Positions 16,509 to 59,852 of a stretch of 64,000 nt of DNA are shown piece after piece. The stretch lies in assembly GCA_903823665.1 (NCBI GenBank), contig CAIJTR010000053.1, positions 1-64,000 of the forward strand, in the 5' to 3' direction. The position numbers and the translations under genes were made by a program. The notes beneath the pieces are model-generated. The model did no database searches. It saw nothing but the letters and a program-made list of their open reading frames with translations, and was not told the origin of the DNA. Origin of the DNA: an uncultured Rhodospirillales bacterium (GTDB lineage: Bacteria > Pseudomonadota > Alphaproteobacteria > Acetobacterales > Acetobacteraceae). Numbering within the stretch: position 1 is the first letter of the stretch; every line of letters begins with the position of its first letter.

Positions 16509-16772
16509 ATGCCCATGGACACCAACATGCCGCCCGCAAAACCTGCCAGCTCCCCCCGTCGCGCCACCAACGTCACGCTGCCGGAGGCACTGCATCAGGA
16601 GGCGAAGGCCCTCGGGATCAACATTTCCCAGGCATGCGAGGCGGGCCTGGAAATAGCCGTGGCGGATGCGCGCCGCGCTGTCTGGCTGGCGCAGAACGCG
16701 GCGGCCATTGAGTCGTGGAACGCCTACTATGAGAAAAACGACCTCACTCTCGCCGCCTACCGGCAATTTTAG
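16509..16772 (+). CDS. ccdA: CcdA-type antitoxin
   Basis: 87 residues. The N-terminal half has a ribbon-helix-helix pattern (RRATNVTLPEALHQEAKALG) as in CcdA. The C-terminal half is helical and ends AAIESWNAYYEKNDLTLAAYRQF in two parts: AAIESWNAYYEKND and LTLAAYRQF. The NxWNxxYEKxG-like segment is typical of the CcdB-binding tail. Its stop overlaps the first base of the toxin gene (TAGTG), the normal antitoxin-first arrangement. The CcdA-CcdB complex usually represses its own promoter. Two starts are possible (ATG 16509 and ATG 16515). Confidence 0.88.
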   Translation: MPMDTNMPPAKPASSPRRATNVTLPEALHQEAKALGINISQACEAGLEIAVADARRAVWLAQNAAAIESWNAYYEKNDLTLAAYRQF

Positions 16773-17074
16773 TGGCCCGCCTGGACGTCTACCCAATGCC
16801 CAATGGCAGGCCCGGATATCTGCTGGACGTGCAAGCCAGTCTTATTGATCAAATTCCAACCAGGGTCGTGGTGCCACTCAAGGCCTCAACGCAAACTCCA
16901 ATAGCGATGAGAGACCTTCACCCAACACTTAGCGTCAACGGCGAGCAACTTGTGATGTGGAGGCATGAGATCGGCTCAATTCACAAACGAGAACTCCGCA
17001 AACCCATCGCCTCCCTCACCGCCGAGCACGACGCCATCACCCGCGCGCTCGACATCCTCTTCACCGGCTTCTGA
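16772..17074 (+). CDS. ccdB: CcdB-type toxin with altered C-terminal tripeptide
   Basis: 100 residues from GTG 16772, almost the 101 of F-plasmid CcdB. MARLDVYP, GYLLDVQASLIDQIPTRVVV and PLKA fit the family's SH3-like barrel, and HDAITRALDILF fits its final helix. CcdB poisons DNA gyrase by trapping cleaved DNA. In F CcdB the last three residues, Trp-Gly-Ile, are essential for killing; here the end is Thr-Gly-Phe (residues 98-100), so the Trp is missing. Toxicity toward gyrase is therefore uncertain. The pair is chromosomal with no plasmid genes around it. Confidence 0.87.
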   Translation: MARLDVYPMPNGRPGYLLDVQASLIDQIPTRVVVPLKASTQTPIAMRDLHPTLSVNGEQLVMWRHEIGSIHKRELRKPIASLTAEHDAITRALDILFTGF

Positions 17075-17092: not shown

Positions 17093-18715
17093 TCAGTCCG
17101 GAAACCCCGCCAGCAACAGCAAATTGCCATAACGTGCCCGCCGCTCCGGATCGCGATACGGGTGGCGAGAGACGATGTCCGAAGCGCTGATGCCCGAATG
17201 CTCGCGCAAGAACAGATCCGCAAAGCTGCGCGCTTCCTCAAACCGGCCCAAAGCCGCCGCACTCGCCGCTGCATAGTTCAGGAACGAGCCAGGCCGTGGG
17301 GACATCGCATGGGAACGCTTGGCCCACGAAATCGCCTGCTCATAGGAACCCTCGGTGTAATGCCCCAACGCCAAGGCGGTATAGGTCTGAAACACCATCG
17401 GGTCTGCCGGCGACAGTTGCAACGCCCGCTCGGCATGACGAATGGCAGCATCGCCGTCCCCAAGCCACGACATCACATAGCTGCTCAATTCCCAGCCCTT
17501 TGGGTAGCTCGGCCCGGCATCAAGCGCCCTGTCCAGATATTCAGTCGCGCAGTCGAAATTTCGATGATGCAGCGCGTAGCCATGGCCTATGCGGGCAAGA
17601 GCCGCCGCGTTGGAGCCATCAAGCGAAATCGCCGTCAACGCACAACGCTCCATCGCCGCCAGATCAACCCGCCGGTCCGTCGTCCAGGCCTGCGAGATTT
17701 GATAGCTGTGCCATTCAGCCGCCAGCGCATAGGCCGGCGCACAATTCGGATCGCGTAGAATCGCCTGATCAAGCAGCGGCTTTGCCTGCTCAAGCTCATC
17801 GCGCAACCACCGCATCATCAACAGCCGTGCCTGCAGCAGCAGCTGATGGACCGACGTGTCCCGCACCGGCACATGGCGCAAATGGCGAATTTCCTGCTCG
17901 CGCACCCGTGGCAGCAACGTGTTGACGATCAAGGCCACGATCGGCACCGGCGCATTGGGTGCCTCGGCTTCCGACGTGACAAAGCTGCGTGACCAAACAA
18001 CCACGCCGGTCGAACTATCTGCCAACTCAAGCAAAATACGCACGCCGCTGCCCTGCCGCCGCACGCTGCCGGACAACAAATAGCTTGCCCCCAGATCACG
18101 CCCCGCCCGCAACACCTCCAGGCCCGTGCGCAGTGCCGCATTGGTGGACACGCGGGAGATCACCACAATGTCGCGCAACGAGGCCAACATGCTCACGATG
18201 TCATCTGCCAAACCCTCGGCAAAATCCGCCAAGCCCGGATCAGGCACCCGAAGTTGCATCATCGCCAACACAGGTGGGCCATCAGCCCCGGCTGAGGCTG
18301 GCTGGGCGGCCCATTTGTTGTCCGTGCCGAGCGTCGTCCGGTCGGCAACTGGCCCCACGAAGCGATAGCCACGCCTGGGCTGTGTCTGAATCCAGCTCTG
18401 CCCACCTGAAGCCGATGCAAGCGCACGCCGCAGCGCTGATATCTGCGTGTCGAGGTTGCTTTCCTCAACGATCAGCCCATGCCACCCGGCCTCCATCAGC
18501 GCGGTGCGGCTGACCAGTTCGCCCGGCCGCTCAACCAGCTTGATGAGAAGCGACACCGCCCGCCGGCCCAGCGGCAATGGCGAACCGCCCCGAAACAGCA
18601 ACTCACCGCGCCGATCGAGCAGAAGATCGCCAATTTCACAACGCCGCCGGTCTAGCGGATGTAAGAATGTGGCTGGTCGATCAATGACGGCGTCTTGCAA
18701 AGCGGCTGCCTCCAA
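17093..18715 (-). CDS. Winged-helix transcriptional regulator with TolB/FlgO-like and TPR domains
   Basis: 540 codons from TTG 18715. No ATG or GTG lies between that codon and the in-frame stop 39 bases upstream. Residues 25-120 form an OmpR/CadC-type winged helix: PLGRRAVSLLIKLVERPGE, the recognition-helix region ESNLDTQISALRRAL and the wing PRRGYRFVGPV. Residues about 150-265 resemble the FlgO/TolB-like domain common after such DNA-binding heads (LADDIVSMLASLRDIVVISR, DLGASYLLSGSVRR). The rest is helical repeat, with TPR-like blocks such as ALALGHYTEGSYEQAISWA. There is no membrane helix and no receiver domain, so activation is probably by ligand or protein binding to the C-terminal part. 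It is divergent from a 60-residue peptide gene. Confidence 0.82.
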   Translation of the reverse strand: MEAAALQDAVIDRPATFLHPLDRRRCEIGDLLLDRRGELLFRGGSPLPLGRRAVSLLIKLVERPGELVSRTALMEAGWHGLIVEESNLDTQISALRRALASASGGQSWIQTQPRRGYRFVGPVADRTTLGTDNKWAAQPASAGADGPPVLAMMQLRVPDPGLADFAEGLADDIVSMLASLRDIVVISRVSTNAALRTGLEVLRAGRDLGASYLLSGSVRRQGSGVRILLELADSSTGVVVWSRSFVTSEAEAPNAPVPIVALIVNTLLPRVREQEIRHLRHVPVRDTSVHQLLLQARLLMMRWLRDELEQAKPLLDQAILRDPNCAPAYALAAEWHSYQISQAWTTDRRVDLAAMERCALTAISLDGSNAAALARIGHGYALHHRNFDCATEYLDRALDAGPSYPKGWELSSYVMSWLGDGDAAIRHAERALQLSPADPMVFQTYTALALGHYTEGSYEQAISWAKRSHAMSPRPGSFLNYAAASAAALGRFEEARSFADLFLREHSGISASDIVSRHPYRDPERRARYGNLLLLAGFPD

Positions 18716-18909
18716 TGGATCCGGGTCGGAAAAGCGTTCAGAGAGCCAGCACTACGGAGAACAAGATAGGTTAACCGTTATATCATCGTGAAATTAGGAT
18801 TAAAAAGCGTTAATTCGAATTTAGAACTTATTTAGAATTGCTTCAGGACTCAGCACCCGCGGTTCAACGAGGGTGTGTGGGTCATCAACGACCAACGGAG
18901 CACGACACA
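18716..18909. promoter_or_regulatory. AT-rich divergent promoter island
   Basis: This gap between the regulator and the peptide gene stands out: about 18770-18840 is strikingly AT-rich in an otherwise GC-rich window. It holds the palindrome AATTCGAATT (18812-18821) and a near-repeat TTTAGAAC / TTTAGAAT just after it. These are plausible binding sites for the divergent winged-helix regulator and promoters for both genes. No experimentally known motif is recognised. Confidence 0.5.
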
Positions 18910-19092
18910 ATGTTCATTCAATCATCCATCAGCACTGCTCGCAGCTTCGCCATCGCCCTGCTCGTTCCCACCGGCCTGATGCTGGCCGTGACGGTCGTGC
19001 CGTCGGACATCACCCTCACCCAGACCCAGGTTTCGGCACCGCAGCATGCAGCCCAGAACGTCCTGGCCGATGACGGCGGCGCTGGCGGCTGA
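18910..19092 (+). CDS. 60-residue hydrophobic peptide, unknown function
   Basis: The start is ATG 18910 with GGAG at 18897-18900. The peptide has a short polar N-terminus (MFIQSSISTARS), one hydrophobic segment at about residues 13-31 (FAIALLVPTGLMLAVTVV), a Ser/Thr/Gln-rich stretch (SDITLTQTQVSAPQHAAQ) and a C-terminus ending ADDGGAGG. It could be a single-pass membrane peptide or a secreted peptide with a signal sequence. I recognise no family. The gene is divergent from a large regulator across an AT-rich gap and followed by a hairpin, so it is most simply the regulator's target. A longer frame from 18838 lacks a good ribosome site. Confidence 0.6.
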   Translation: MFIQSSISTARSFAIALLVPTGLMLAVTVVPSDITLTQTQVSAPQHAAQNVLADDGGAGG

Positions 19093-19122
19093 TTTCAGCC
19101 CTGGCCTCACATTTAGCAACGA

Positions 19123-19152
19123 AGGGTGGAATGCGCGCGCGTATTCCACCCT
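19123..19152. terminator. Hairpin after the 60-residue peptide gene
   Basis: A perfect 10-bp stem, AGGGTGGAAT (19123-19132) with ATTCCACCCT (19143-19152), around a GC-alternating loop. It lies 31 bases after the peptide stop and 32 bases before the convergent flavin reductase stop, so it may end transcripts from both sides. No T-run follows. Confidence 0.6.
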
Positions 19153-59799: not shown

Positions 59800-59852
59800 C
59801 TAGAGCACGTTTCGACCAGATGGAATCATCTGGTCGAAAGTTCGTGCTCTAG
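59800..59852. repeat. Palindromic repeat, family C, copy 1
   Basis: A 53-bp palindrome. Outer arms are CTAGAGCAC / GTGCTCTAG and inner arms are TTTCGACCAGAT / ATCTGGTCGAAA around a 6-base loop. It would form a very stable hairpin. A second, related palindrome follows after 13 bases. Confidence 0.9.

Follow-up and report, generated by a model that had tools for sequence, protein, structure and literature searches.

A regulator without a membrane segment and a 60-residue single-pass membrane protein, encoded divergently in the window (the whole 64,000-nucleotide stretch of DNA analysed here), seem likely to form a dedicated cassette, in which the regulator binds a triplet of short repeats and controls the membrane protein. 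By sequence comparison, regulator, triple repeat and divergent gene for a predicted single-pass membrane protein co-occur twice in the same genome (4,538,145 bases, 211 contigs), and the distance between the repeat and the peptide gene is kept. The evidence base for the pair is thus two copies in one genome. By analogy with known systems, the control is probably activation of the peptide gene rather than repression.

Organization of the locus

The preliminary description had read a regulator, a gap, a peptide ORF and a hairpin from this region, and all four are present (Table 1). The 540-codon regulator is an open frame on the minus strand, with the 60-residue ORF diverging from it on the plus strand across an AT-rich gap. 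Upstream of the chosen TTG the regulator frame, which spans 552 open residues in all, offers no further ATG, GTG or TTG, and since no ribosome site is evident before this TTG either, the start is uncertain over the first ~25 residues.

The gap (18716-18909) was described as strikingly AT-rich, and indeed it has 46% GC versus 64% for the whole window; the minimum of the window falls within it, and the next distinct GC low in the window is 39%. The palindrome and the short direct repeats mentioned for the gap were also located: AATTCGAATT, 10 bp at ~18812-18821 (a reading by eye), ATTTAGAACTT/ATTTAGAATTG at 18819 and 18830, and AAAAGCGTT at 18730 and 18803. In this AT-rich stretch the score of the 11-bp-lag repeat is matched by 0.9% of dinucleotide shuffles, and by 4.6% once any lag from 9 to 13 is permitted; judged from the window locus by itself, the repeat is suggestive only. 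No sigma-70-like promoter consensus was found in the gap, and no RNA families were detected in 14-24 kb of the window.

The hairpin that closes the peptide ORF has no T run, which rules it out as a standard terminator, and many shuffles of its stretch fold at least as well (z -1.1). From its position it might possibly serve as a two-way terminator. At the other end of the locus a CcdA/CcdB antitoxin-toxin pair (16509-17074, plus strand; Pfam E 2e-22 and 3.7e-25) is convergent with the regulator gene, and 18 bp separate their ends.

Table 1. Features of the regulator-peptide locus (positions in the window)
Feature	Position	Strand	Details
Regulator gene	17093..18715	-	540 aa, TTG start; winged helix, TolB-N-like domain and TPR; without membrane segment
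TPR helical array, ~residues 287-536	17108..17857	-	Pfam TPR families, PDB profile; model pLDDT mostly 85-97
TolB-N/FlgO/LpoB-fold domain, ~residues 149-281	17873..18271	-	predicted model m704393addbd4, pLDDT 75
OmpR/PhoB-type winged helix, residues 45-119	18359..18583	-	Pfam Trans_reg_C, E 7.5e-13
AT-rich island	18760..18839	.	26% GC; lowest 80-bp GC in the 64 kb window
Proposed operator, TTTAGAA-N4-TTTAGAA-N4-TTCAGGA	18820..18848	+	common to the second copy at matching distance
Operator heptads	18820-18826, 18831-18837, 18842-18848	+	7-bp repeats, 4-bp spacers
GGAG, likely ribosome site of the peptide gene	18897..18900	+	~9 nt 5' of the ATG
Small membrane protein, 60 aa	18910..19092	+	ATG 18910, stop 19090-19092, ends ADDGGAGG
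Predicted membrane segment, residues 12-30 (SFAIALLVPTGLMLAVTVV)	18943..18999	+	19-residue hydropathy mean 2.23
Hairpin	19123..19152	.	15-nt arms, 93% complementary; boundary between the peptide gene and a convergent flavin-reductase-like gene

The two proteins

The winged helix and the TPR domains assigned to the regulator earlier hold up, the former by Pfam and the latter by both Pfam and the PDB profile. Among solved structures, a profile of 15 relatives finds TPR proteins along with the DNA-binding domains of CadC, ToxR and PhoB, that of CadC (5ju7) at E 7.6e-20. The TolB/FlgO-like domain proposed for the middle of the protein was the right call by fold, Pfam being nearly blind to it (at E<=0.01, FlgO is found in 1 of the 15 relatives and LpoB in 1). 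When this domain was modelled alone, structure search matched TolB (E 2.8e-7), PelC (3.4e-7), FlgT (5e-7), LpoB (1.1e-6) and the CadC periplasmic domain (6.4e-5); the alignments give Z 12.6 with TolB (rmsd 3.6, 119 aligned), Z 12.5 with FlgT (rmsd 4.8, 142 aligned) and Z 9.8 with CadC (rmsd 3.6, 113 aligned). On the predicted model, then, the middle domain belongs to the TolB-N/FlgO/LpoB fold superfamily. The full-length model, with an overall pLDDT of 64, is of good quality over the TPR part but poor over the N-terminal 150 residues.

No membrane segment was found in the regulator, whose top 19-residue hydropathy mean is 1.37 and lies inside the middle domain. The layout is that of CadC minus the membrane helix, and because the helix is missing the sensor part is predicted to be cytoplasmic. 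Among the fold matches of the TPR part are a pheromone-bound Rap (Z 18.6, rmsd 3.2, 222 aligned) and also RapF (Z 16.7, rmsd 3.6, 239 aligned), which are tied with many unrelated TPR proteins; since the latter resemble the TPR part about as well, the Rap match does not discriminate.

The peptide ORF is well started, as had been noted, with its GGAG before the ATG. Codon preference favours the frame of the ORF (positive), both shifted forward frames giving negative values and two reverse frames values near zero. A longer start (TTG 18838, 84 aa) is ruled out by negative codon preference. The peptide has no match in Pfam, NCBIfam, PHROGs or plasmids, and as a single sequence it found itself and weak matches only (E>=0.16) in 60 genomes; by itself it did not pick up the second copy described below at E<=1.

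A second copy in the same genome

A second regulator, on contig C101 (G000:C101), is 54% identical to the window regulator over residues 19-537. Upstream of it lies a divergent ORF of 76 aa with one predicted membrane segment (hydropathy 2.93), which was chosen by position and not by score. The two peptides align at score 59, with 22 identical columns over the 60 residues of the window peptide, and their common core reads STxR, A, LLVPxxLM. This score was attained by none of 5000 shuffles. Nor was it attained by any of 383 ORF pieces with a membrane segment, drawn from 362 kb of this genome; the best of these pieces reach 43 against the window peptide and 45 against the second one. It should be noted that three ORFs drawn in by the two-peptide profile score 61-66 against the second peptide, so scores of this size can arise when ORFs are picked for them. 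Codon preference supports both peptide ORFs, while differences across the 42 aligned codons fall 23/14/22 by codon position, with no concentration at the third. The similarity lies mainly in the membrane segment; towards the C-terminus the tails are unlike, and the second copy does not end in ADDGGAGG. CGGAGCA before the ATG is common to both.

The two-peptide profile, run against 299 genomes of the family, gave matches in 19 other genomes (E 1.4e-4 to 0.08) and nothing convincing outside the own genome: the 11 non-own matches that were translated looked like fragments of other genes, like chance reads or, in the case of L090, like the unrelated start of a lipoprotein-like product. No flanking genes common to the two copies were seen, the second one sitting between a PAP2-family gene and a frame that, from its sequence, we take to be DNA-polymerase-IV-like. 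That regulator, operator and peptide recur together as a diverged second set suggests that regulator and peptide work as one unit.

Several further features of the second copy were observed. On its contig (L047 1936-2566, minus strand) the second peptide is followed by two small ORFs of 61 and 73 aa with ATGA overlaps at each step, so the target there looks like a three-gene operon of which the window copy has only the first gene. The coding signal of the 61-aa ORF is weak and the 73-aa ORF weakly resembles a single other small ORF (L164, E 1.5e-4); no useful relatives were found for the two. Between the operator and the regulator of the second copy there is a near-perfect palindrome of ~53 bp with CTAGAGCACG ends (L047 2686-2738), also present at 59800-59852 of the window and at L120 23-75, and such palindrome ends recur at several places in the genome. 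The same genome has at least six more broadly similar regulators (contigs C202, C58, C91, C6, C199 and C99), with 26-36% identity and several of them with longer frames.

A triple-heptad putative operator

The heptads of the second copy read TTCATAA, TTCAGAA and TTCAAGA. DNA alignment of the two gaps scores 35 versus at most 27 in 300 shuffles, and in a joint scan of both gaps period 11 reaches 36 of 42, with periods 8-10 and 12-15 at no more than 29; the score of 36 was attained in none of 60 block shuffles (best 31). Allowing up to three mismatches, the triplet pattern occurs at two sites in 4.54 Mb, namely the window and the second copy; as the pattern was derived from both sites, finding them again was bound to happen, but finding no others was not. 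When only two heptads were required and one mismatch was allowed, this looser pattern hit the same two sites only, versus 2 matches for the reversed control.

The triplet ends 61 bp from the peptide ATG in the window and 59 bp in the second copy, whereas its distance to the regulator start is 104 bp in the former and 130 bp or more in the latter. That the triplet is fixed relative to the start of the peptide and not to that of the regulator points to the peptide gene as the regulated product.

Relatives of the regulator and a family rule

Regulator matches at E<=1e-20 occur in 155 of the 299 family genomes, other domain layouts included. No closer orthologues were found among 395 genomes of the order or among the 299 of the family, two samples that overlap partly: besides the own two copies, the best among the matches listed for the 395 genomes are 34-38% identical full-length and 41-42% identical over the C-terminal three quarters. 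The cassette is absent from seven genus mates, and a synteny route through the flavin reductase was abandoned as these mates are too distant (best 48%). Among named genomes no relative was found with the window protein as query, and the two regulators as queries found Shewanella winged helices only (7 loci).

The upstream search for peptides started from 55 loci, of which eight, with matches that start after residue 60, were dropped; the 47 kept are the window, the second copy and 45 others, two of which are further regulators of the own genome. Conservation of the peptide next to homologous regulators holds in one respect and fails in another. Six-frame comparison over up to 1.2 kb of upstream DNA (shorter at five of the 47 loci) revealed no related peptide beside the 45 other full-length relatives, the best score there being 46 versus 59 for the peptide pair. 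The only relative above ~38% full-length identity, the second copy, does have one.

What relatives retain in part is the spacing of the repeats. Period 11 is found at p<=0.01 in 9 of the 47 upstream regions, and any other period from 8 to 15 in at most two. Leaving out the two own copies, the mean z is 1.17 for period 11 versus 0.79 for the next, period 9, which may be favoured by coding ends within the upstream regions; cluster means are 0.95 +- 0.29 (n=35) and 0.48 +- 0.16, respectively. We regard the family-wide excess of period 11 in these sequences as moderate, and a clear triplet is lacking at most single loci of relatives. Some relatives of 30-37% identity nevertheless bear their own 11-bp-period arrays, facing unrelated targets.

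Repeats clearly outlast spacers in two of the four groups of relatives compared. In genus g126, five relatives have retained heptads of the CCGAA type and have changed 4-bp spacers; L050 and L162, from other genera and tested alongside, have no array. In L051/L055/L058 there are four heptads and the spacers are more variable. The three heptads of L005/L065/L070/L072 keep a TTG core only and the spacer contrast is weak, while L052/L054/L057/L059 are conserved throughout and so are uninformative on spacers. Measured in 12 loci, the operator edge precedes the start of the target by 59-97 bp. By group, the targets are NmrA-like, a TauE/SafE permease, and a gene with a weak dienelactone-hydrolase match (Pfam); the g126 target has no Pfam match and by eye reads as a secreted hydrolase. 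In all five g126 loci (L048, L049, L159, L160, L161) the CCGAA-type triple heptad precedes a divergent small-hydrolase-like gene with a secreted-protein-like start, which makes them a clean set of regulator, operator and target.

How the cassette may work

The regulator would be, by analogy, a soluble one-component switch for its divergent neighbour. Three monomers would bind head to tail, one per heptad, on a single face of the DNA, and the bound regulator would contact RNA polymerase just upstream of the peptide promoter and so turn transcription on. The TolB-N and TPR part may restrain the regulator until a cytoplasmic ligand or partner is met. Binding, activation and this control are inferred from the known systems discussed below. 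The output would be the small protein, with a short N-terminus inside, one membrane helix bearing the shared LLVPxxLM core and a short tail outside; it is predicted to sit in the inner membrane, and there it would act most likely by binding another envelope protein. The preliminary description had proposed a self-contained circuit with the peptide as its product and perhaps its signal. Of this, the circuit and the regulated product gain support from the second copy of the unit and from a repeat that tracks the start of the peptide; the signal does not.

It is also conceivable, if rather unlikely, that the small membrane protein is a feedback anchor which binds the TolB-N/TPR part and holds the regulator at the membrane, like a CadC that obtains its membrane helix in trans, from the product of the gene it controls. 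The C-terminal part matches the fold of the CadC periplasmic domain, as does the middle domain alone, the regulator has no membrane segment and its partner is little more than one, and both genes stayed together in two copies. What the peptides have in common, however, is mainly the membrane core, and relatives of the same layout face unrelated products, which argues against an anchor as a general need of the family. Equally improbable in our opinion is a split CadC in the full sense, where the regulator would turn on a tiny protein that provides its membrane helix in trans and draws it to the membrane, and the feedback would couple membrane state to its own transcription.

We also doubt that the regulator mainly controls itself, with the peptide ORF a bystander or untranslated and its similarity to the second copy a chance hydrophobic match. 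The match is short, profile-selected unrelated ORFs score equally high against the second copy, and the 45 other relatives do without the peptide; but no unselected membrane segment among the 383 reaches the score of the pair, codon preference backs both ORFs, and ribosome site and operator spacing are kept in both copies. Least of all do we expect a peptide signal, exported and cut, whose C-terminal fragment would be re-imported and bound by the TPR part: a short ORF with a hydrophobic N-terminal half and Rap pheromone receptors among the fold matches would suit it, but those matches are non-specific, the winged helix is of the OmpR/CadC type, and the shared part of the peptides is mainly the membrane segment while their tails, ADDGGAGG included, differ (though signals of paired systems can diverge).

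The dedicated cassette with the small protein as output, if correct, has some general use. In several groups of relatives the target gene and its operator can be read from DNA, as the divergent neighbour and the 11-bp-period heptad array, respectively. Each recognition helix can thereby be matched with its heptad, and comparing such pairs across relatives could allow DNA-reading rules of OmpR-type winged helices to be derived and tested. In the window, a small membrane protein has kept, in two copies, what seems to be a regulator of its own, and this would give direct access to the function of a protein whose size puts it beyond homology searches. In the open-licence literature we found no study of this regulator layout, though family relatives are common, and no match for the combination of a soluble CadC-like layout, a divergent target, a heptad array and a small membrane protein.

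Comparison with known systems

Each element of the cassette is of a known kind. Rap/RRNPP regulators combine an Xre-type HTH (or none) with TPRs and have the peptide gene downstream, unlike the window regulator with its OmpR-type winged helix and divergent peptide gene. HilA is soluble and consists of a winged helix plus TPR. HilA/EilA is the best NCBIfam match of the regulator (NF009037, E 1e-15 over residues 26-467), but at 57.1 bits versus a cut-off of 589 the regulator falls outside that family, and in contrast to HilA/EilA no virulence context was seen around it.

CadC and ToxR share with the regulator an N-terminal OmpR-type winged helix, a mixed alpha/beta subdomain and a helical subdomain, a two-subdomain layout described for the CadC sensor (PMC5936718). 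In Foldseek the regulator matches the CadC periplasmic domain (3ly7-3lya) at E 1.3e-6 to 2.9e-6 with a TM-score on the query of 0.22-0.25 and 11-13% identity, so the modelled likeness to the CadC sensor fold is weak. CadC has a membrane helix between its DNA-binding and sensor parts and the window regulator does not; its CadC equivalog score is 55 versus a cut-off of 400, and, unlike CadC, it faces a divergent one-gene target with a triple 11-bp repeat.

With PhoB, PhoP and OmpR the regulator shares the DNA-binding fold and, through its putative operator, the rule of 7+4 bp repeats: PhoP requires 7-bp motifs with 4-bp spacers and binds three motifs tighter than two (PMC4832192). It has no receiver domain by Pfam, and TolB-N and TPR stand in its place.

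SARP-family regulators are defined by the bacterial transcriptional activation domain. This domain and the ATPase domain are absent from the Pfam matches of the regulator at E<=0.1. SARPs such as AfsR and PimR nevertheless place a winged helix on 11-bp-period heptads, and the window operator has, by sequence only, the same pattern. PimR activates from a site upstream of the -35 box that consists of three heptads spaced by 4 nt (PMC5930380). AfsR has C-terminal TPRs and activates afsS, its NOD and TPR domains being inhibitory until ATP binds (PMC10936776). The afsS gene adjoins afsR and encodes a small protein described as sigma-factor-like (PMC10972967), whereas the window peptide is mostly membrane segment. 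With its C-terminal TPRs and adjacent gene for a small protein, as in the window, AfsR-AfsS is by analogy the nearest functional counterpart of the proposed cassette.
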